Under the pieces are notes generated by a model. That model saw nothing but the letters and a program-made list of their open reading frames with translations. It was not told the origin of the DNA and did not search any database. From Sorangium aterium (GTDB lineage Bacteria > Myxococcota_A > Polyangia > Polyangiales > Polyangiaceae), in contig NZ_JAQNDK010000002.1 of NCBI RefSeq assembly GCF_028368935.1, forward strand, positions 1,922,001 through 1,986,000: DNA of 64,000 bases, written 5' to 3'. A program made the translations under genes and the position numbers. Shown here one piece after another: positions 5,192 to 51,943 of the stretch. Each line of letters begins with the position of its first letter. The stretch's first letter is position 1.

Positions 5192-7003
5192 TCACCGACA
5201 TTGCGCTGGCAGCTGGGACATCGCCTCGCCTGCCCCGATCCGCGCGGCGGCCAAGGCGTGGGACTTCGCCGCGCACCCCTTGGACGCGACCGCACGCTTG
5301 GCGCTACCGCTGATAGCGGCTCTCGCCTCGGCCTTCTTGGGGCCATCGCAGGCCGCGAAGCGCTTCACCGCGAGATCCGTGTTGCCGCCGTTCGCCAGGT
5401 TGATCGCGGCCCTGCACTCCTGCTCCGCCTTCTCGTTGCCAGGCGGCGGGGCCTTGGGTCCGGTGGTCGCGGCCGGGGTCGTCGGGGTCGACGTGTGCTT
5501 CGGGGTGTCCGGAGCCGTCTTGTCCGGGCCGTTGGGCTCGGGCGGCGTAGGCTCCGGGGTGGTGGTGGGCGTGCTCGTGGGCGTGCCCACGGGATCCGAT
5601 GCCACGGTGACCGACGGCGCGCCCGTGGGCAGCGGGATCGCGGTCGACGTGCTCTCCTCGGTCGTGCTCCCGCCGCTCCCCCTCGTCATCATGACGACGC
5701 CCACGACGCCGAGCACCGCGACGGCCGCGACCGCGGCGAGGATCGGAGCTGCCTTGCTCTTCTGCGGAGCCGGCGGCGGCGCGGGGAACACCTGGCCGCT
5801 GCCCGTGGGCACGGCCGGGTGCGCCGGAACGACAGCCTGATCCATGACCGTCGCGGCCTGATGGGCCTGATGGGCCTGATGGTTGACGACGGTCCTCACC
5901 GGTCCCGATCCCGTGGGCGGCCCCGCGACGAACAGCGGCTCCCCGAGCTGCGTCTGACCCGAGCGCGACGGCATGAGCGCCGTCCCGCTGGTCGGCGCGT
6001 CGCTCCCGACGAGCGTGCGGGGCGCCGCCGCGAGCACCGAGAGGCGGGCGCCCGCGCCGATCGTGAGATCCTCGTAGAACTCCCGCGCCGACTGCTGCCG
6101 GTCCTCGCGCCTCTTGCTGAGGGCCCTCATGACGGCCGCCTTCATCTTCGGCGGGGCCGCGGCGCCCATCGGCACCGCCTCGAACGGGAACGGCTGCGCC
6201 GTCATGTGCTGCGTCGCCCACGCCCATGGCGTGTCGGCGTCGAACGGCAGGCGCCCGGTGAGCATCTCGTAGGTCAGCACGCCGAGCGAGTAGATGTCGC
6301 TCCGCGCGTCGAGCTCGGTCCCCGTGAACTGCTCGGGGCTCATGTACGGCGGGGTCCCGAGCACCGTCCCCTGCTGGGTCAGCTTCTGCTCGGCCTTTGC
6401 GCTGCGCTCGTCGCGCTTCGCGATGCCGAAGTCGAGGACCTTGACGTAGTCCTCCTCGCCGGCGCGCTTGGTCAAGAAGATGTTGGCGGGCTTCAGGTCG
6501 CGGTGGACGATCCCCTTCTCGTGGGCCTCCTGGAGCGACCCGCACGTCTGCGCGATGATGCGATCGACGCGCTCTGGAGAGAGCGCGCCGCCCCGCTCGA
6601 GCGCCGTCTCCAGCGACTGCCCGTTGAGGAGCTCCATCGCGATGTAGAGCTCCCCGGTGTTCGTCTGCCCGAAGTCGTAGACCTTGATGGTGTTCGGGTG
6701 CTCGAGCTCGCTGACCGTGCCGCACTCCCGCATGAAGCGCGCGACCACCTGCGGATCCTTCGCGTGCTGCGAGAGGAGCGTCTTGATGGCGACCTTCCGC
6801 ACCGACGTCCCCATCGGCTGCTCGCCGTTGTAGACGCGGCCCATCCCGCCCTCGCCGAGCACGCCGATGATGCGGAACCGGCCGCCGACGATCGCGCCGA
6901 TGAGCGGGTCTGCCTCCACCGGCGCGACAGGGAGGAGCGCGCCGCACGTGGCGCAGAAGCGCGCCCCATCGATGTTTGGCTGATGGCAAGCGGGACATTC
7001 CAT
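5192..7003 (-). CDS. zinc-ribbon Ser/Thr protein kinase, single-pass membrane
   Basis: This 603-residue Hanks-type kinase opens with a zinc ribbon (CPACHQPN...CATCG, residues 3-21). The kinase domain spans about 41-320: glycine loop GEGGMGRV (50-57), VAIK with Lys74, HRDLKPAN (catalytic Asp169) and DFG (191-193). All catalytic residues are present, so it should be active. A Pro/Gln-rich juxtamembrane region contains HQAHQAHQAA. One membrane helix (about 419-440) follows, then a Thr/Pro-rich stalk and a Cys-containing helical C-terminal domain (ECRAAINLANGG, VASKGCAAKSH, LPAQCR) presumably outside the cytoplasm as a sensor. It is monocistronic, with no adjacent phosphatase or substrate gene. 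Confidence 0.93.
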   Translation of the reverse strand: MECPACHQPNIDGARFCATCGALLPVAPVEADPLIGAIVGGRFRIIGVLGEGGMGRVYNGEQPMGTSVRKVAIKTLLSQHAKDPQVVARFMRECGTVSELEHPNTIKVYDFGQTNTGELYIAMELLNGQSLETALERGGALSPERVDRIIAQTCGSLQEAHEKGIVHRDLKPANIFLTKRAGEEDYVKVLDFGIAKRDERSAKAEQKLTQQGTVLGTPPYMSPEQFTGTELDARSDIYSLGVLTYEMLTGRLPFDADTPWAWATQHMTAQPFPFEAVPMGAAAPPKMKAAVMRALSKRREDRQQSAREFYEDLTIGAGARLSVLAAAPRTLVGSDAPTSGTALMPSRSGQTQLGEPLFVAGPPTGSGPVRTVVNHQAHQAHQAATVMDQAVVPAHPAVPTGSGQVFPAPPPAPQKSKAAPILAAVAAVAVLGVVGVVMMTRGSGGSTTEESTSTAIPLPTGAPSVTVASDPVGTPTSTPTTTPEPTPPEPNGPDKTAPDTPKHTSTPTTPAATTGPKAPPPGNEKAEQECRAAINLANGGNTDLAVKRFAACDGPKKAEARAAISGSAKRAVASKGCAAKSHALAAARIGAGEAMSQLPAQCR

Positions 7004-7764: not shown

Positions 7765-7837
7765 GCTGGCGTAGCTCAATCGGTAGAGCACCTGCCTTGT
7801 AAGCAGGGGGTTAGGGGTTCAAGTCCCCTCGTCAGCT
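7765..7837 (+). tRNA. tRNA-Thr(UGU)
   Basis: A 73-nt cloverleaf folds by eye: acceptor GCTGGCG with CGTCAGC, D arm GCTC/GAGC, anticodon stem CCTGC/GCAGG with loop CTTGTAA (anticodon TGT), and T arm AGGGG-TTCAAGT-CCCCT. CCA is not encoded. It is the first of four tRNAs co-oriented with tuf. Confidence 0.95.
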
Positions 7838-7918
7838 CCGATGCAAGGCAACAGGTCGATGGTTCGGGAGGTCGCGGCAGAGACAAAGTCGGCAAAATCT
7901 AATAAATAGAGAAAATCT

Positions 7919-8000
7919 GGAGGGTTGCCCGAGCGGCCAAAGGGAGCAGACTGTAAATCTGCCGGCAATGCCTACGATGGTTCGAATCCATCACCCTCCA
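7919..8000 (+). tRNA. tRNA-Tyr(GUA)
   Basis: An 82-nt class II tRNA has acceptor GGAGGGT with ACCCTCC, anticodon loop CTGTAAA (anticodon GTA), a long variable arm as expected for bacterial tRNA-Tyr, T arm GGTTCGAATCC, and discriminator A. It is second in the cluster. Confidence 0.95.
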
Positions 8001-8074
8001 CCGGGGCGTCTTTACGCTCCGAAGGCGGTCCGACCAGGATCCAGATCCGCTGGGGTCACTCCCGACGGAAGCCC

Positions 8075-8147
8075 GCGGGCGTAGCTCAGTTGGTAGAGCG
8101 TCAGCCTTCCAAGCTGAACGTCGCCGGTTCGAACCCGGTCGCCCGCT
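8075..8147 (+). tRNA. tRNA-Gly(UCC)
   Basis: A 73-nt cloverleaf has acceptor GCGGGCG with CGCCCGC, anticodon stem TCAGC/GCTGA with loop CTTCCAA (anticodon TCC), and T arm CCGGTTCGAACCCGG. CCA is not encoded. It is third in the cluster. Confidence 0.95.
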
Positions 8148-8163
8148 CCGTGGTCGGTCGTTT

Positions 8164-8236
8164 GCCCACCTAGCTCAGTTGGCAGAGCACGTCCTTGGTA
8201 AGGACGAGGTCGTCGGTTCAATCCCGATGGTGGGCT
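8164..8236 (+). tRNA. tRNA-Thr(GGU)
   Basis: A 73-nt cloverleaf has acceptor GCCCACC with GGTGGGC, anticodon stem CGTCC/GGACG with loop TTGGTAA (anticodon GGT), and T arm GTCGGTTCAATCCCGAT. It is the last tRNA before tuf, 55 nt upstream of its start codon. Confidence 0.95.
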
Positions 8237-8291
8237 CCAGCGAGGACAGCGAAACGCAGTCGCGAACTTCATTTCGGCAGGAGACATCTCG

Positions 8292-9482
8292 ATGGCCAAG
8301 GAGAAATTCACTCGTACGAAGCCGCACGTGAACGTGGGCACCATCGGCCACATCGACCACGGCAAGACCACGCTCACGGCGGCGCTCGTCAAGGTGCAGT
8401 CGAAGCGCAACCTGGCGAAGGCGATCTCGTACGCCGACATCGCGAAGGGCGGGACGGTCCGTGACGAGACCAAGACGGTGACCATCGCGGCGGCGCACGT
8501 CGAGTACGAGTCGGCGAACCGCCACTACGCGCACGTCGACTGCCCCGGGCACGCCGACTACATCAAGAACATGATCACCGGCGCGGCGCAGATGGACGGG
8601 GCGATCCTCGTCGTGTCGTCGCTCGACAGCGTGATGCCGCAGACGCGCGAGCACGTGCTGCTCGCCCGGCAGGTCGGCCTGAACCACATCGTCGTGTTCC
8701 TCAACAAGTGCGACGCGGTGGACGACCCGGAGATGCTCGACCTGGTCGAGATGGAGGTCCGCGAGCTGCTGTCGAAGTACAAGTTCGACGGCGACAACGC
8801 GCCGGTGGTCCGGGGCGCGTCGCTGCCCGCCCTGCAGGGCGACCCGAAGTGGGAGGAGACGATCCAGCAGCTGCTCAGCGCGCTGGACAGCTACATCCCC
8901 GAGCCGGTGCGCGACATCGACAAGCCGTTCCTGATGGCGATCGAGGACGTGTTCTCGATCAAGGGCCGCGGCACGGTGGCCACGGGCCGCATCGAGCGCG
9001 GCGTGATCAAGGTCGGCGACGAGGTGCAGATCATCGGCTTCAAGGACACGAAGAAGTCGGTCGTGACCGGCGTCGAGATGTTCCGCAAGCTGCTCGATCA
9101 GGGGCAGGCGGGCGACAACGTCGGGTGTCTGCTCCGCGGCGTGGAGAAGGAAGAGATCGAGCGCGGCCAGGTGCTGGCGAAGCCCGGGTCGATCACGCCG
9201 CACACGAAGTTCACCGGTGAGGTGTACGTCCTCAAGAAGGAGGAGGGCGGGCGCCACACGCCGTTCTTCACCAACTACCGGCCGCAGTTCTACATCCGGA
9301 CGACGGACGTGACCGGCACGGTGAACCTCCCCGAGGGGGTGAAGATGGTGATGCCGGGCGACAACATCACGATGACGATCGAGCTCATCGCGCCGGTCGC
9401 GCTGGAGGAGCAGATGCGCTTCGCCATCCGCGAGGGCGGCAAGACGGTGGGCGCCGGCGTCGTCACCAAGATCCTCGCGTAG
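8292..9482 (+). CDS. tuf: elongation factor Tu
   Basis: EF-Tu delivers aminoacyl-tRNA to the ribosome and hydrolyses GTP. The 396-residue product is full length. It has GHIDHGKT (residues 19-26; Ile replaces the usual Val), the DCPGHADY switch II motif, NKCD for guanine specificity, and the beta-barrel domains 2 and 3 ([13 protein letters not shown]). AGGAGA lies 8-13 bases before ATG 8292. It follows four tRNA genes and its stop codon overlaps the ribosome binding site of rpmG. This is the tRNA-linked, tufB-type arrangement. Whether a second tuf gene exists elsewhere cannot be seen. Confidence 0.98.
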
Positions 9483-9491
9483 GAGGCCGAC

Positions 9492-9662
9492 GTGGGCGAG
9501 CAGGCCGGTGGGTGGCGTGCGGCGCGCATCGCCGTCTCACTGGCCTGTCGCGAGTGCAAGTCGCGGAACTACAAGACCACGAAGGCGCCGGACCAGGTGG
9601 TGTCGCTCAAGAAGTTCTGCAAGCAGTGCAAGAAGCACACGGTTCACGACGAGACGAAGTGA
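9492..9662 (+). CDS. rpmG: 50S ribosomal protein L33
   Basis: This 56-residue large-subunit protein is the standard gene between tuf and tRNA-Trp/secE in many bacteria. The conserved part is [15 protein letters not shown] to [11 protein letters not shown]. Two CxxC pairs make it the zinc-binding (C+) form. Translation starts at GTG 9492, five bases after a perfect AGGAGG (9481-9486) that overlaps the tuf stop codon. This adds about 17 residues ([16 protein letters not shown]) before the usual L33 core. No ATG lies in frame between this site and the core, so an extended N terminus is likely real. Confidence 0.93.
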
Positions 9663-9691
9663 ACGGGTGCTCAGGAAGGCGCAGCGATTCT

Positions 9692-9764
9692 AGGGGTATA
9701 GCTCAGTTGGTAGAGCAGCGGATTCCAAATCCGCAGGTCGGGAGTTCGAGCCTCTCTGCCCCTG
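9692..9764 (+). tRNA. tRNA-Trp(CCA)
   Basis: A 73-nt cloverleaf has acceptor AGGGGTA with TGCCCCT, anticodon stem GCGGA/TCCGC with loop TTCCAAA (anticodon CCA), T arm GGGAGTTCGAGCCTCTC, and discriminator G. It lies between rpmG and secE, its usual position. Confidence 0.95.
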
Positions 9765-45549: not shown

Positions 45550-45914
45550 GCGACAGACACGCAAAGACGGTGCTCCTCGTGGAGGACGATGCGGATCTCG
45601 TGGCGCTCGTCGCCCTCGTGCTCCAGGAGGGCGGGTACCGGGTCAAGATCGCGTGCAACGGTCGCGAGGCGCTGGCCAAGCTGGAGCACGACCTGCCGGA
45701 TCTCATCCTGCTCGACATGAAGATGCCGGTGATGAACGGCCCGGAGTTCGCGCGTGAGCTCGAGGTCCGGCACGGGCGTCAGGCGCCCATCGTCGTGCTC
45801 ACCGCCGCGGCGGACGCGCACCGGCGGGCGGCCGAGGTCGGCGCCGACGCGTGGCTCGGCAAGCCGTTCGAGCCGGACGCGCTCCTCTCGACAGTGAGGC
45901 GCTACACAGGGTGA
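45546..45914 (+). CDS. single-domain response regulator
   Basis: This 122-residue CheY-like receiver has no output domain. Acidic pair Asp14-Asp15 (VEDDAD), phospho-acceptor Asp57 (LILLDMKMP), Thr87 and Lys107 (LGKPFEP) are all present, so it should be phosphorylated, most likely by the kinase encoded immediately upstream with a 4-bp overlap. Lacking an output domain, it must act through protein contacts or a phosphorelay. Its 3' end overlaps the convergent squalene-synthase-like gene by 13 bp. Confidence 0.95.
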   Translation: MSDRHAKTVLLVEDDADLVALVALVLQEGGYRVKIACNGREALAKLEHDLPDLILLDMKMPVMNGPEFARELEVRHGRQAPIVVLTAAADAHRRAAEVGADAWLGKPFEPDALLSTVRRYTG

Positions 45915-46966
45915 GCGCGGAGGAGCTGCCGCCGCTCGGCGAGGTCGCGCCGCACCTCGGCCCAGTACCGCGCGGGGAACCGGCGGTGATCGAAGCCGGT
46001 CGCGCGGAACACCCGTGTGATGCGGGCATAACGGCGCAGGCTCCACTCCCTCATGATCTGGAGCGAGGGGTGGAGGCCGCGCGCCTCGATGAACGGCGCG
46101 GCGCGCGCGTAGAGCGCTGGCATGACCTCATCGAGCCAGTTCCGCATCAGGGCCTGGTATCCGGGCGTATCGACGCACCGTCCGGAGATCACCTGAGCGC
46201 GCGTGACCCCATAACGCGCGAGCTCCTCCTCGGGCAGGTAGCAGATGCCGCGATCGGCGTCCTCCTGCATGTCCCTCAGGTTGTTGAAGAACTGATCGAG
46301 CCGACCGAACTCCCCGGCCGCGTCCCAGTGCTCCTTCGTCAGGAACGGAACCAGCTGGAAGATATGGCCTGACAGCCGCACCAGCATCGTGTCGTGCTCC
46401 TTCAGGGTGCGGATGAGCAGGCTGGGAGCGTGGTAGTCGGCGAGGGCGAGCAGGTAGGCGTCCCAGGCGGCGAGCGCGCGCGGTTGCATGTCGTCCGGGT
46501 CGGGACGATCGGGCGCGGGGCCGCGGAGCCACAGCGCGTGGATGGCCGAGAGCTCGCGGGCGAAGGGGCAGCACGGATCGACGAAGCCGCAGGAACGGAC
46601 GCGCCTCCACGCCACCATGAAGCGGCTGAACCGCCGCGCGTGCGGCTCGATGCGCTCGTTCTCGGCGAGGCGATCGACGATGCGGATCCAGCGGATGCGG
46701 TCGAGCCACGCCCGCTTCACGTCGGGCGTGAGGCCGAGCACCCATGCGGCGTTGTCCTCGTCTTTCAACGCGTCGTCCGACAGGGCGCGATAGTGCGATG
46801 AGCCGACGATCGCCGAGATCGGCTGGTAGGGAGTCTGCTCCGATGCCGGTGCAGCAGCGGGCAGGTAGGGCAGTCGAGAGGAGATGTGTTGAATAGGTTT
46901 CACGATGTCGAGTGCCGCACGTTGAACGTGCTTGTCGCCGGTGTCGCCCTGGCTTCGCGCGGTCAC
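45902..46966 (-). CDS. squalene/phytoene synthase-like protein
   Basis: This 354-residue protein resembles trans-isoprenyl diphosphate synthases that join two prenyl diphosphates head to head. The second metal-binding motif is clear: NNLRDMQEDADRGICYLPEEELARYG (written as DMQEDADRG, about 232-240, and CYLPEEEL). The first aspartate-rich motif appears only as DRLAE (98-102), which is degenerate. The middle region with four Cys (RSCGFVDPCCPF) is unusual. Start GTG 46966 is uncertain; a GTG at 46903 is an alternative. The product may be a terpenoid or carotenoid precursor, or catalysis may have been lost. No other terpenoid genes are nearby. Confidence 0.6.
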   Translation of the reverse strand: MTARSQGDTGDKHVQRAALDIVKPIQHISSRLPYLPAAAPASEQTPYQPISAIVGSSHYRALSDDALKDEDNAAWVLGLTPDVKRAWLDRIRWIRIVDRLAENERIEPHARRFSRFMVAWRRVRSCGFVDPCCPFARELSAIHALWLRGPAPDRPDPDDMQPRALAAWDAYLLALADYHAPSLLIRTLKEHDTMLVRLSGHIFQLVPFLTKEHWDAAGEFGRLDQFFNNLRDMQEDADRGICYLPEEELARYGVTRAQVISGRCVDTPGYQALMRNWLDEVMPALYARAAPFIEARGLHPSLQIMREWSLRRYARITRVFRATGFDHRRFPARYWAEVRRDLAERRQLLRAHPV

Positions 46967-47819
46967 TGGCGATTATGGACGTGGCCCGCCCTGTTTGCTT
47001 TGGGCGCCTGCGTCGGTGATGGATGGTGGCTCTCTACCGTGTAGAACTTTCCGATCCTCCGAGAGATGCGCGGTGACGCCCGTTCGCCTTCCTTTATGAG
47101 GCCTTATCGTCTCCCAGTCGACGCGGAAATTCGTCGTCCAGGGCACGGGCGCCGGAGATAATGCATGGATTCCTTGTGTCTTTTGCCGGTATGTTGGGAA
47201 CACGCCGTCAATGATCGTCGGTGTATACCCTGGGTCGGTACATTGTCCAACGGATAACATCAGTGATGGCCTGACATCTCGGCCCCTTCTCGCTCCGTCT
47301 CGGCGGTACGTCAGGCGTTCTAGGCACATGGATTATCCCGGAGTTCCTGGCGGATGGCACCTGTGCCCACGTGACGGCGCGTGAGCGCCGGGGGCGAGCC
47401 TCTCTCTCTGCTGCTCGGTCTGCCGCGGTGAACGGCGCGACGGAAACGCTCCGACTCGCGACCGGACGCGATGCTAGACGCGCTCGTGACAGGGGGGATT
47501 CAGCGGTTGTTATCGCGCCGTGCGCGCTGCGGTGAACGGCCCAGATCTGTGGTTGTGACCACGGCCCAAAGCGGTCATCCGCGCTCGGTGCGCCCGAGGG
47601 GCGTCCGCTCCAGACAGAGTGGATGGACCGGACGAGAGGCCCTCGGGAACCACGTCCACCCATCCATCACCCGGTGGACGTGGACGATCGAGTCGGTGCT
47701 CGCCGAAGCGCGCTCCTGGCGCGGTGACGCCGCTCACCGCCGCCGTTGCGTCGCTGGCGCACGATGGCCGCCCGCCGGTGGGGGGCCGGGCTACCAGACA
47801 TGCAAAGGAGAATCTCAGG
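46967..47819. other. gene-free region, partly less G+C-rich
   Basis: About 850 bp hold no convincing protein gene. The left part (46970-47330) is clearly richer in A+T than its surroundings and could carry promoters for the divergent gene at 46966 and for the candidate RNA to the right. Small inverted repeats exist (TGTGGT-TGTG-ACCACG near 47549), and TGCGGTGAACGGC-type words occur near 47424 and 47530. Confidence 0.45.
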
Positions 47820-47960
47820 TTCGAAAGACTTCAGGAGCATCCTTAAGGTTAACCCCCTGAATCGAGCAAGGTCGGGCCCTGGCCCGTGTCCTGCTAAAGC
47901 TGCAGGACAGAGCGCCCGTGACGGCTTCCCCCCCCGCCGTCGAATGGGCGCTCTGTTTTT
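47820..47960 (+). ncRNA. candidate structured small RNA ending in an intrinsic terminator
   Basis: Four consecutive stems can form on the plus strand. They are TTCAGG/CCTGAA (47830-47835 with 47856-47861, extended by TCGA pairs), CGGGCC/GGCCCG (about 47873-47886), TGTCCTGC/GCAGGACA (47887-47894 with 47902-47909) and the terminator stem listed separately. No open frame here looks coding, and the only gene close by ends on the other strand. The 5' end and promoter are not identified. It could alternatively be a long 3' UTR, but no plus-strand gene precedes it for about 1.9 kb. Confidence 0.45.
47907..47960 (+). terminator. strong Rho-independent terminator, plus strand
   Basis: ACAGAGCGCCC (47907-47917) pairs perfectly with GGGCGCTCTGT (47946-47956). 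An inner stem GACGGC/GCCGTC (47920-47925 with 47936-47941) is closed by a C-rich loop. Five T residues end the structure (47956-47960). On the minus strand no T-run follows, so it serves plus-strand transcription. No known plus-strand gene lies upstream. Confidence 0.85.
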
Positions 47961-47986
47961 GGTGCTCTTCGTCGGGGACGCGAGGC

Positions 47987-50900
47987 CTAGCGCTCGCGCA
48001 GCCTGGCCACACGGTCGCGCCAGTGCTGGAGATCGAGCGCGGAGAAGACCGCGGCGGCGCGCGCGATCTGGCGCTCGCGCTCTGGATCGCGGCGCGGGAG
48101 GTGCCGCGCGAGCTCGAAGCGGGCGCGCGCCTCCTCGACGGGCAGGCCGCGCTGCAGGGCGTCGTCGATCGCCGCGGCCCAGAGCTGCCTCGCGCGCGCG
48201 CGGCCGCCGGCGAGCCACGCGGCGAGGCCGCTCAGGCGGAGCGAGGTCGAGCGGCCGAGGGGGAAGATGCGCGCGTACCGGCCGAGCGCGCGGCACGCCT
48301 CCGCGGAGGTGCGCGAGAGCTCGCGCCTCTCCGCCGAGCCGGGGGCGTCCTCGAGCAGCGCGAGCAGCACCTCGCACGTCGCCGCATAGCCGTACAGGCA
48401 GTGGTAGCCCGCCGGCTGTCCCTCGCGGAGCATGGGGAGCGTCCGCTCGGCGGCCGCGCGCGCCTCGGCGTTCGCGCCGCGGAGCAGGTGCCCCAGCGCG
48501 ACCTGGCCGTGCGTGATCTGCTGCGTGCGGTCGCCGAGCCGCTGCACCTCGGCCGACAGCGCGTCGAAGATGGCGATCGCGCCCTCGCCGTCGCCGAGCA
48601 GCAGCCGGCACTGCGCGCGGCCGCTCTCCGCCCAGATGTGGCCCTGCGCGTTGTCGCTCTCGCGCGACGCGATCACGAGCGCGCCGTACAGGTCGAGCGC
48701 CTCCCTCCAGCGGCCCTCGGAGTACGCCACGCCGGCGAGCAGCGTGATGCACTCCTCCTTGCGGCGGCGGTCGTGCAGCGCCTCGGCCAGCTGCTCGGCC
48801 TGGGTGAGCAGCGCCCGCGCGTCGCGGCACCGGCCCTCGCCGAGCGCCGTCAGCCCGCGCAGGCACGAGACGAACGCGACGCCTTGCGGGTCGTCGAGCG
48901 CCGCCGCGACCGCCGTCGCGCGCGCGGCGTACGCGTCGACGACGGCCTTCCACGGGACATACCCGAACGCGACGCTCAGGGTCGCGTACCCGCGCGCGAG
49001 CGCGAGCGACGGGCCGAGCCGCGCCGCGGCGTTGGTCGCCGCCAGCGCGGCCAGGAAGGCGAGCGTCGGCTCGTTGCGGAACAGGTACGTCTCCGACAGC
49101 TTCTCCGCCGCGAGCGACGCCTCGGCGAGGCGCTCGCGCTCGGCCGCGTCGCGCGCGACCGGGGCCGGCAGGCCAGCGACGTGCGCGAGCTGCAGGCCGA
49201 GCTGCTTCAGCGAGGCCATCGCCGGGCGGAGCCGCTCTCCGAGGCCCGCGCGACCGCTCGCCGCGCGCTCCCCCGCGCGGAGCCACGCGGCCTCGTCCCG
49301 CGAGAGCAGCTCCAGCGCCGCCGCGCAGTGCCGCTCCGCGCCGAGCAGATCGCCGAGGTTGTAGTGCGCCTGGCCGAGCCGCCGCTCCCAGCGCGCACGC
49401 CGGAGCGGCGGCGCGCGCTCCTCGGGAGGGTGCGCGCCGTCGAGGTCGAGCGCCCTCTTGTAGAAATCCACCGCGTCGCCGGAGGCGCCCGTCGCGAGGG
49501 CCTGGGCGCCCGCCTTGTCGAGGTACTCCAGCGTCTTCTGGACGGCGCCGGCGATGCCGTAGTGGTGGGCGAGGAGCGGGTACGACAGCGCGAGGCCCGG
49601 CGCGTCGCGGTGGCGCCGCTCGATCGCGCGCGCCGCGGCGGCGTGCAGGGCCCGCCGCTCCGGCTCGGGGGTGCCCGCGTAGACGATCTCCCGCAGCTTG
49701 TCGTGCACGAAGCCGAGCCGCCCCGGCTCGGTCTCCTCGAGCACGTGGCGACGGGCGAGCTCCGCGAGCGCGTCCATGGCGTCGACCTCGGCGAGGCCGG
49801 CGGCGCCGAGCAGCAGGCGCTCCTCGAGCTCGCGGCCCAGCACCGAGGCGAGCCGCGCGAGCGCGAGCGCCCCCTGGCTCAGCCCCGACAGCCGGCGCGC
49901 CACGAGCTCGCGCAGCGAGCCCGGCAGCGGCAGCGGGGCGGGCGGCTGGCTCCCGCGCGCGGCGCGGGCGAGCCGCTCTGCGGCGGCGCCCTCGGCGCCC
50001 GCGCGGATCCGCCACGCGTAGGCCTCGTCCCGGTAGATCACCCGCTCCTGGATCGCGGCGCGGAGGTACTCCGCGATGAAGAACGGGTTCCCCTCGGACT
50101 GCTCGAAGAGGTACTGCACGAACGCCTCGGGCGGCTCGTCCAGGGCGAGCATGTCGCGCACCATCCGCCCGACCGACCCGCGATCGAGCCGCCCGAGATC
50201 GAGCCGCGAGGCCCAGGGGGCGCCGAGGAGCGAGGAGAGCGCGGGCGACGTCTCCTCGGTCCGGTACGCGCACAGGAGGACCACGGGGTGGGCCGCGAAG
50301 TAGTCCGCGTCGAGGTGCTCGAGGACGGCGCGCGAGTTCTCGTCGGCCCACTGGAGGTCGTCGAGCACGAGCAGGACGGGCCGCGTCGCGGCGAACGCGG
50401 CGAGCGTGTCGGCGAGCGCGGTCCGCAGCCGGTAGCGGGCCGCGTCCGGCGGCAGCTCGGGGGGCTCCGGGTAGCGGTCGTGGCCGCGGAGCTGGGCGAG
50501 CGACGGCTCGTGCGGCGCGAGGACCCTGCCGCGCGGGCCGAGCAGCGCGTCGTAGCCCGTGGGGCCGAGCTCGCTGCACCGGTCGGCCACCGCGAGCAGG
50601 AGCGGGCGGAACGGGTGCAGCGGCGCGGCCTTGACCGCGCCCTCGCGCTCGACCTCGGCGGACACGGCCGCGCATGCGCCCGTGACCACGGCCATGCGGA
50701 TGAGCGCCGCCTGGTGCGCCGCCTCGACGGCGAGGCGCGTCTTGCCCACGCCGCTCTCGCCGCCGACGACGAGGAGGCTGCCCTGGCGCCGCTCGTGGGC
50801 GCGCTCGAGCGCCTCGGTGATCTTCTGCAGCGCCTCCCCGCGCCCGGCGAGGCGCGGCCGGTACAGGTACGGCTGCGCCTTCGGCACGCGCACGCGCACA

Positions 50901-51943
50901 TGCGCGCGCTCCCCGCCGGGGGGCGGCGTGTCGGCCGCGCCGAGCTCGGCGAGGGCGGTCGCGACCTCGTCGGCGTAGCCGAGCCGGTCCTCGGGGCGCT
51001 TCTTCAGGAGCCGCGCGATGAGGGCGTCGAGCGCGGGAGGCACGTCGGCGACGAGCTCGGAGGCCGGGAGCGGCTCGGCGTAGAGGTGCATGGACAGCAC
51101 GACGGAGCTCGAGTCGCCGAGGAACGGGACGCCCCCGGTCACGGCCTCGTAGATCATGCAGCCGAGCGCGTAGAGGTCCGCGCGCGCGTCGACGAGGTCC
51201 CCGCGGATCTGCTCGGGGGACATGTAGTCGGGGCTGCCCATCAGCCTGCCGCCCGCCTGGAGCACGTCGCGCCCGGTGTTCCCCTCGAACTGGAAAGCGA
51301 GGCCGAAGTCGAAGAGCACCGGCGTGCCGTCCGGGCGGATGAACACGTTGTCCGGCTTGAGATCGCGGTGGACGAGGCCCCGGCCGTGGACGTACGCGAG
51401 CGGCCGGCAGATCGCGCGGAGGAGCGTCAGCGCCTGGCGGAGCGCGCCGCCCGCCGCGCGGTGGAACGGGCGCGGCGCGAACGGCTGGTACGAGCGCGGG
51501 ATGATCGAGGCGGGCGCGATCTCCGCCGTCGCGGTGCTGGCCTGCGCGTCCATGGCCGTGGAGACGCTCACGGTCGGCTCGCTGCTCACGCTCCCGCGGG
51601 CGCGCCAGCGCTCCTGGTTGTGATCCCGGAGCGTGCGCCCCTCGATCAGCTCCATCGCGTACCACGGGATCCCGCCCTGGACCCCCTCGTCGAGCACCCG
51701 CACGACGCCCGGGTGCTCGACGCCCCGGAGCGCGTGGATCTCGCGGCGGATGCTGGAGACGAGGCTCTCGTCGCCCACGCTGACGGTCTTGAGCGCCGCG
51801 AGCGCGCCCGTGATGCTGTGCTGGGCGCGGTAAACGATCCCCATCCCGCCGCGGCCGAGCGGCGCGAGCACCCGCCACGGCCCGATGGACACCGGGACAT
51901 CCGGAGGGTGCCTGGCCTGACCCGAGCTCGGCGTCGTGATCAT
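47987..51943 (-). CDS. giant Ser/Thr kinase / AAA ATPase / TPR signalling protein
   Basis: A 1318-residue cytoplasmic protein. The kinase domain (about 20-335) has GRGGMGIV, Lys52, HRDLKPDN (192-199) and DFG (212-214). An unusual insert of about 55 residues (about 112-167, Ser/Thr/Ala-rich) lies between the hinge and the catalytic loop. An AAA/NTPase module of the type found in ATP-dependent transcriptional regulators has Walker A GGESGVGKT (394-402) and Walker B LLVLDDLQWADE. The remaining 700 residues are TPR-like helical repeats (ALDLYGALVIASRES, AIAIFDALSAEVQR). It resembles the myxobacterial PknB/AAA/TPR family and PknK. It probably integrates signals by phosphorylation. It is monocistronic and has no DNA-binding domain. 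Confidence 0.9.
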   Translation of the reverse strand: MITTPSSGQARHPPDVPVSIGPWRVLAPLGRGGMGIVYRAQHSITGALAALKTVSVGDESLVSSIRREIHALRGVEHPGVVRVLDEGVQGGIPWYAMELIEGRTLRDHNQERWRARGSVSSEPTVSVSTAMDAQASTATAEIAPASIIPRSYQPFAPRPFHRAAGGALRQALTLLRAICRPLAYVHGRGLVHRDLKPDNVFIRPDGTPVLFDFGLAFQFEGNTGRDVLQAGGRLMGSPDYMSPEQIRGDLVDARADLYALGCMIYEAVTGGVPFLGDSSSVVLSMHLYAEPLPASELVADVPPALDALIARLLKKRPEDRLGYADEVATALAELGAADTPPPGGERAHVRVRVPKAQPYLYRPRLAGRGEALQKITEALERAHERRQGSLLVVGGESGVGKTRLAVEAAHQAALIRMAVVTGACAAVSAEVEREGAVKAAPLHPFRPLLLAVADRCSELGPTGYDALLGPRGRVLAPHEPSLAQLRGHDRYPEPPELPPDAARYRLRTALADTLAAFAATRPVLLVLDDLQWADENSRAVLEHLDADYFAAHPVVLLCAYRTEETSPALSSLLGAPWASRLDLGRLDRGSVGRMVRDMLALDEPPEAFVQYLFEQSEGNPFFIAEYLRAAIQERVIYRDEAYAWRIRAGAEGAAAERLARAARGSQPPAPLPLPGSLRELVARRLSGLSQGALALARLASVLGRELEERLLLGAAGLAEVDAMDALAELARRHVLEETEPGRLGFVHDKLREIVYAGTPEPERRALHAAAARAIERRHRDAPGLALSYPLLAHHYGIAGAVQKTLEYLDKAGAQALATGASGDAVDFYKRALDLDGAHPPEERAPPLRRARWERRLGQAHYNLGDLLGAERHCAAALELLSRDEAAWLRAGERAASGRAGLGERLRPAMASLKQLGLQLAHVAGLPAPVARDAAERERLAEASLAAEKLSETYLFRNEPTLAFLAALAATNAAARLGPSLALARGYATLSVAFGYVPWKAVVDAYAARATAVAAALDDPQGVAFVSCLRGLTALGEGRCRDARALLTQAEQLAEALHDRRRKEECITLLAGVAYSEGRWREALDLYGALVIASRESDNAQGHIWAESGRAQCRLLLGDGEGAIAIFDALSAEVQRLGDRTQQITHGQVALGHLLRGANAEARAAAERTLPMLREGQPAGYHCLYGYAATCEVLLALLEDAPGSAERRELSRTSAEACRALGRYARIFPLGRSTSLRLSGLAAWLAGGRARARQLWAAAIDDALQRGLPVEEARARFELARHLPRRDPERERQIARAAAVFSALDLQHWRDRVARLRER

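Follow-up and report, generated by a model that had tools for sequence, protein, structure and literature searches.

A very short candidate sRNA gene of Sorangium aterium with a predicted sigma-54 promoter is one copy of a family resembling Pxr

Small RNAs (sRNAs) of the very large myxobacterial genomes have, to our knowledge, been little studied. In Vibrio, the Qrr RNAs, which are about 100 nt long and Hfq-dependent, are encoded by several similar sigma-54-dependent genes under one NtrC-type activator and act with additive dose, and sponge RNAs of the CsrB/RsmZ type offer tandem GGA-bearing hairpins for multivalent binding. The closest described system is Pxr, the gatekeeper of multicellular development in Myxococcus xanthus, which holds back fruiting-body formation as a negative control of development; it is an sRNA of ~108 nt with three stem-loops that is encoded between pxrR and MXAN_1079/pxrA. 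According to excerpts of PMC5684412, Pxr has a predicted sigma-54 promoter and depends on the loop of its first hairpin, as a C-to-A change or deletion of this loop abolishes function. Excerpts of the same source and of PMC8538405 place its origin in the Cystobacterineae, and an excerpt of PMC5568312 gives one copy in most species and several in Cystobacter. The activator PxrR, also named SpdR, is reported to be essential for Pxr synthesis (PMC10217877, excerpt), and a 2025 publication, in the part available, calls the direct targets of Pxr uncharacterised and proposes pxrA (PMC11928866). Our literature search returned no paper joining Sorangium, sRNA and Pxr.

We analysed a stretch of 64,000 nucleotides of the Sorangium aterium contig NZ_JAQNDK010000002.1, called the window, in which the original prediction had located a near-perfect plus-strand intrinsic terminator with no plus-strand gene in the ~1.9 kb upstream. 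Both observations held: the hairpin is followed directly by a T5 run (Table 1), and the first plus-strand gene encountered upstream is a response-regulator reading frame ending at 45914. The outer stem of the hairpin has 12 bp and the inner stem 6 bp (GACGGC/GCCGUC), and the C run of its apical loop is likely to be its functional part. The 56-nt segment 47906-47961 folds with -35.7 kcal/mol; its dinucleotide shuffles average -14.8 kcal/mol (sd 2.7), and none of 200 folds as well (z -7.7). The fold of the longer plus-strand segment 47780-47962 is only moderately unusual (z -2.8), its signal being carried by the hairpin, and the minus-strand fold is not unusual (z -1.3) and comes with no T run. 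A simple terminator scan did not list the site because its loop limit was 8 nt and the loop here comprises 10. Scanning the window with Rfam gave no family at cut-off over the locus, and a permissive scan of 46900-48050 yielded four weak matches, the best with an E value of 0.17 on the minus strand.

A sigma-54 promoter is recognized by GG and GC spaced ten bases apart, transcription starting 12 nt after the C of the -12 element. This signature is found at 47880-47895, so that the stems which the original prediction had noted in front of the terminator are promoter DNA, and the start of transcription is predicted near 47906, leaving only the hairpin within the RNA. Upstream of the promoter lie two putative activator sites, 21 bp apart, with the family consensus TTKCAnnnnTGMAA; when scored with a weight matrix trained on Pxr loci only, site 1 was equalled by 0 of 100 shuffles. 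The element at -30 has three mismatches to the family sequence and is therefore supported by its place rather than its letters. By eye, the upstream TTGCAAG repeat was also considered as a sigma-54 site and rejected, GG and GC being 11 instead of 10 bases apart. The predicted sRNA, judged from the fold, is a single hairpin of ~55 nt, and by its sequence the locus combines a predicted promoter of its own, a terminator and a conserved structure as expected of a free-standing sRNA gene. We thus consider it very probable that 47880-47960 is a complete, very short, free-standing plus-strand sRNA gene with its own predicted promoter and terminator. The earlier view of a structured RNA unlinked to any protein gene stands in this form; what was taken for its 3' end, the terminator, makes up nearly the whole RNA.

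Table 1. Positions of the predicted sRNA gene, its control elements and its flanking genes in the window
Feature	Position	Strand	Remarks
Squalene/phytoene-synthase-like (terpene-synthase) gene	45902-46966	-	
Stretch holding the sRNA gene	47617-47986	.	No counterpart in Sorangium genome G002 (orthologous intergenic region)
Upstream activator site 1, putative (TACCAGACATGCAA)	47792-47805	+	88 bp before promoter TGG; matrix score 8.6
Upstream activator site 2, putative (TCTCAGGTTCGAAA)	47813-47826	+	67 bp before TGG; matrix score 7.8; aligned among copies
Element at -30 from TGG (TAACCCCCTGA)	47850-47860	+	Family YAAGTGCYYGA
Sigma-54 promoter, predicted	47880-47895	+	-24 TGGCCCG 47880-47886; N4; -12 CTGCT 47891-47895
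Predicted small RNA	47906-47961	+	Start inferred from -12 element; end at T run; fold; model R1
Hairpin	47908-47955	+	Outer stem 47908-47919/47944-47955; inner stem 47920-47925/47936-47941; covariation
Apical loop (UUCCCCCCCC), 10 nt	47926-47935	+	C run (C8) at 47928-47935
T5 run, intrinsic terminator tail	47956-47960	+	Sequence
Ser/Thr kinase gene, AAA and weak TPR matches	47987-51943	-	

Nor is the RNA an isolated new one: it belongs to a family resembling Pxr. When 47660-47985 was used as the query of a DNA search, 10 of 39 related genomes gave matches. Those in this genome, in five genomes of the same genus and in G019 cover all or part of ~47787-47982, and the single matches in G032, G034 and G038, which are short and lie upstream of the hairpin, are probably unrelated to the family. 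Alignment of the copies resulted in three blocks, i.e. the repeats near 47792-47826, TGGCCCG-N4-CTGCTAA and the hairpin. This alignment, A1, was built with a pattern that fixed GG, GC, GAGCGCC and GGCGCT, and part of the invariance of stem and promoter is therefore there by construction; two of its 32 rows (L003 and L006) were reverse-complement artefacts and were left out. In the 30 aligned copies TGG and TGC are unchanged throughout, GG and GC having been demanded by the search and the preceding T of each not.

Covariation in relatives had been suggested as a check, and the terminator hairpin passed it, with compensatory changes in its stem. In A1, 94.8% of the cells are paired and 6 of 18 pairs have two-sided changes, a number that 3 of 500 shuffles attain (mean 3.6), the covariation score being 0.182 versus 0.112 for shuffles (0 of 500 as high). 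A wider alignment, A2, comprised 47 of 52 reference sequences, L050, L052, two of L094 and L100 being too different to align. Here 89.8% of the cells are paired and seven pairs are changed on both sides, with a score of 0.229 versus 0.153 and 65 two-sided cells versus 17.4 in shuffles (0 of 500 for each). Of the five measures one, the count of further pair types, did not exceed shuffles in either alignment.

The model R1 scores the predicted RNA at 104 bits, this copy being itself included in the model. At E <= 0.001 it matches 29 of 183 genomes of the order, 28 of them from a single family, the Polyangiaceae. With strict filters, this genome has seven copies, each of the five other Sorangium genomes 4-10 and each of six genomes of genus g15 six. 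Among 377 genomes of the phylum 15 match, the two outside the class Polyangia weakly, and in distant matches the promoter and the C loop are kept and the stem is changed. A pattern made of the promoter, C7 and T4 occurs in 24 of the 377 phylum genomes, 22 of which belong to the class Polyangia, and its reversed control in one of 377. We also passed the loci collected to this point through a folding filter, which demanded a C6 run no more than 75 nt from a sigma-54-like site and discarded rows that did not differ around the loop. Removal of L110 and L118, which lie outside the class and do not have the look of the family, reduced the 78 distinct candidates to 76 copies, 74 from 22 genera of the class Polyangia (genera counted from genome handles) and two from Pxr. 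In 72 of the 76, the distance from the -12 element to the C run is 29-36 nt, a narrow spacing that was not imposed by the filter. The C run is 6-10 nt long in all 76, at least 6 being imposed, and at least 7 nt long in 75. A greedy and crude clustering of the stems gave 18 clusters; it separates the two Pxr rows, one of them being grouped with L045. These natural stem variants show what stays fixed. A second Sorangium subfamily has the stem GAGCGC.GTCGCGGAGACC and the same C8 loop (L075:13355-13399, L081:15038-15082 and L083 near 13565, all on the plus strand) and sits behind a sigma-54-like promoter and TTKCA-type sites.

In G143 one sigma-54 promoter is followed by five near-identical C-loop hairpins (L086:6821-7105, plus strand) and another by four (L087, ~6490-6770, minus strand), with a weak T run after each hairpin. 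Tandem hairpins behind single promoters argue that the hairpin is the functional unit, and they are possibly a ladder of multivalent RNAs. The arrays are reminiscent of the multivalent binding by sponge RNAs of the CsrB/RsmZ type, which offer GGA, whereas the fixed loop here is a C run. By description, the multicopy arrangement in Sorangium resembles that of the Qrr genes, from which the family differs in its ~55-nt RNA and in the absence of a match to Hfq in the five genomes searched, four of Polyangiaceae and M. xanthus AM003 (5 of 14 control genomes match). Any pairing would therefore be Hfq-free.

For the comparison with Pxr we collected 13 Pxr loci with a pattern derived from two oligonucleotides printed in the available part of PMC5568312. 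All 13 have the first-hairpin loop UUCCCCCCC (C7), and the 12 that reach far enough upstream have TTKCAnnnnTGMAA sites, a YAAGTGCYTGA-like element and TGGCACG-N4-CTGCTAWA. A Pxr locus in a record titled Comamonas sp. KCTC 72670 (L125, BNCN01000002.1) is nearly identical to that of Myxococcus, and the record is probably mislabelled. The Sorangium copy is thus like Pxr in its predicted sigma-54 promoter directly upstream of the sRNA, in tandem sites and an element of the same kinds, and in a hairpin with a C-run loop (C8 here), the stem sequences being unrelated. Applied to the 74 class copies, the weight matrix gave a mean best score of 10.1, versus -0.3 for shuffled sequences; in 29 of the 74 the two best sites are 21 bp apart, the commonest spacing, with positions near -88 and -67. 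A score of at least 10 was reached anywhere in 46 of the 74 copies; among control sigma-54-like sites, 13 of 498 loose ones and 4 of 9 strict ones reached it, and the motif is therefore not confined to sRNA genes. When the two usual places alone are counted, the figures are 38 of 74 copies versus 0 of 498 loose and 0 of 9 strict controls, these two places having been chosen after the site positions were seen and most of the loose controls probably being chance matches. Several copies, e.g. both of L115 and L092, have no such motif, and that of f17 lies away from the usual places. The element before -24 matches best at -29/-30 in 34 of 74 copies and with at most two mismatches in 24 of 74, versus ~3.5% of shuffles.

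A spacing of 19 bp is typical of Pxr loci, 11 of 12 having their sites at about -111/-92; for the element, the position is -42 in 11 of the 12 and -30 in one. In the Hyalangium Pxr locus a strict site lies at -89, and the element at -30. Unlike Pxr, the RNA is a single hairpin here and has four to five hairpins in G143, occurs in several copies per Sorangium genome where excerpted reports give Pxr one in most species, and lies in the window between a squalene/phytoene-synthase-like gene and a Ser/Thr kinase gene. We do not claim membership in RF01812, as neither model detects the other family: RF01812 exceeded its cut-off in none of the 28 genomes tried from the class Polyangia and in both of two Myxococcia controls, an Rfam scan of 10 loci gave a family match at two Pxr loci only, and R1, used on 12 of the 13 Pxr loci, did not recognize the first hairpin, its best match (E 0.15) being to the 3' part. 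The apical pattern GGYTYCCCCCC behind a sigma-54 promoter was found in 3 of 377 genomes and its reversed control in four, so that the apex GGUU-C-ACC common to Pxr and some Sorangium copies may be due to chance. On balance we regard it as probable, by a clear measure, that the family shares its regulatory logic and its loop with Pxr and is related to it.

A PxrR-type activator is likewise present. Searching with PxrR gave one standout match in each of 12 genomes (53-57% identity, 473-500 bits; next match 362-402), and in the reverse search against M. xanthus AM003 the best match of this genome's protein, encoded at G000:C4:1219440-1220789, was the locus holding PxrR itself (478 versus 393 bits), demonstrating that it is the reciprocal-best relative of PxrR. 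The recognition helices, SATTLWRKM and SSTTLWRKM, differ in one residue. The 12 PxrR-like loci fetched contain no sRNA copy. Gene calls were usable for 10 Polyangiaceae loci (not for L177), and the genes predicted there include no PxrK-like kinase; among the loci examined, only G312 has PxrK-like genes near the PxrR-like gene. In 4 of 4 cases checked, a palindrome of the same kind also precedes the sigma-54 promoter of the response-regulator gene that adjoins the PxrR orthologue (TTGCATCTTTGCAA and similar; L168:8161, L169:8679, L171:8518, L178:8351), which suggests a wider PxrR regulon. The upstream motif offers a testable PxrR/SpdR regulon in the very large myxobacterial genomes.

The flanking genes of the window copy, both on the minus strand, are also neighbours in the Sorangium genomes G002 and G004, and the intergenic region there has neither the sRNA module nor a C6 run; in G004 the stretch holding the sRNA gene is replaced by ~100 bases of poorly alignable sequence. 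The terpene-synthase orthologue is present in 6 of 6 genomes of the genus, and the stretches fetched beside it in the other five contain no copy (the G005 contig ends early). For five of this genome's seven copies, one or more flanking genes (at least 76% identity) also flank a copy in another Sorangium genome; for the window copy none do. By this comparison, it was either gained here or lost in relatives and is not tied to its neighbours. Absence at the same place in two relatives, together with several intergenic copies per genome, would also suit a small mobile repeat of the REP or MITE kind that carries promoter and hairpin by chance. We hold this to be very improbable: the DNA similarity between copies is limited to ~47787-47982, the functional unit, where no terminal repeats are evident, albeit without a dedicated search, most copies have flanking genes in common with other species, and the stem pairing is kept. 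A mere terminator, bidirectional, for the convergent kinase transcript or for a long plus-strand transcript, has still less to recommend it. The kinase gene does end 27 bp from the T run, and the element is nearly palindromic, with a minus-strand R1 match at E 0.028, but the T run is on the plus strand alone, the kinase orthologues of G002 and G004 have no such element beside them, and promoter and hairpin stay together in copies with differing neighbours, the promoter being imposed by the filter and the narrow spacing not. Termination needs no C8 loop.

Equally improbable is a structured RNA reaching further upstream, as originally proposed, which stable local stems in the single sequence might suggest. 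The 8-bp perfect stem (TGTCCTGC, 47887-47894, with GCAGGACA, 47902-47909) is present in the sequence but finds no support as RNA structure, as its pairing and its score in relatives are no better than in shuffles: over the seven pairs tested 66.8% of the cells are paired (92 of 500 shuffles as good), and the covariation score of 0.106 was reached by 128 of 500. The stem overlaps the -12 element, and what is conserved there is the promoter and the activator sites. The strongest competitor, which we nevertheless consider unlikely, is a sigma-54-driven C-loop sRNA unrelated to Pxr by descent, in which grammar and loop arose separately, the same activator family and kind of target favouring both. 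It would account for the unrelated stems, the models that do not detect each other, the differing site spacing, the motif in front of other sigma-54 promoters and an apical likeness no commoner than its control. Three features, however, are coupled, namely tandem upstream sites, an element before -24 and a C-loop hairpin soon after +1, and the reciprocal-best activator is present in the same genome.

Our preferred reading, which we take to be likely on the strength of these comparisons, is a minimal multicopy Pxr-like sRNA gene under probable activation by the PxrR/SpdR orthologue. This protein, as the most likely NtrC-type activator, would bind the tandem sites and trigger sigma-54 polymerase at the promoter, giving a ~55-nt transcript whose one hairpin would also be its own terminator. 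The exposed C8 loop would be the working part, acting in trans by pairing with G-rich mRNA stretches or by holding a C-tract-binding protein, and several copies would raise the dose. For this action through the loop we see the chances as even. Among 121 predicted starts, taken crudely from longest frames, two have G6 runs nearby and two C6 runs, i.e. there is no excess of G runs. By analogy with Pxr the RNA may help to hold back or time a starvation or development switch. As a C-loop hairpin alone, such a stripped-down relative would show which part of Pxr is core. More tentatively, and with somewhat less than even confidence, Pxr could be an elaborate descendant of an old Myxococcota class of sigma-54/PxrR-driven RNAs with freely variable stems and a poly-C loop as their one constant, rather than a late invention of the Myxococcus lineage. 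This class would take the form of multicopy ~55-nt monomers in Sorangium and of tandem multivalent arrays in G143, and its loop would act, independently of Hfq, on either G-tract mRNAs or a protein that binds C tracts. Elsewhere in the window, Rfam models identified five tRNA genes within 2 kb (7765-9764).
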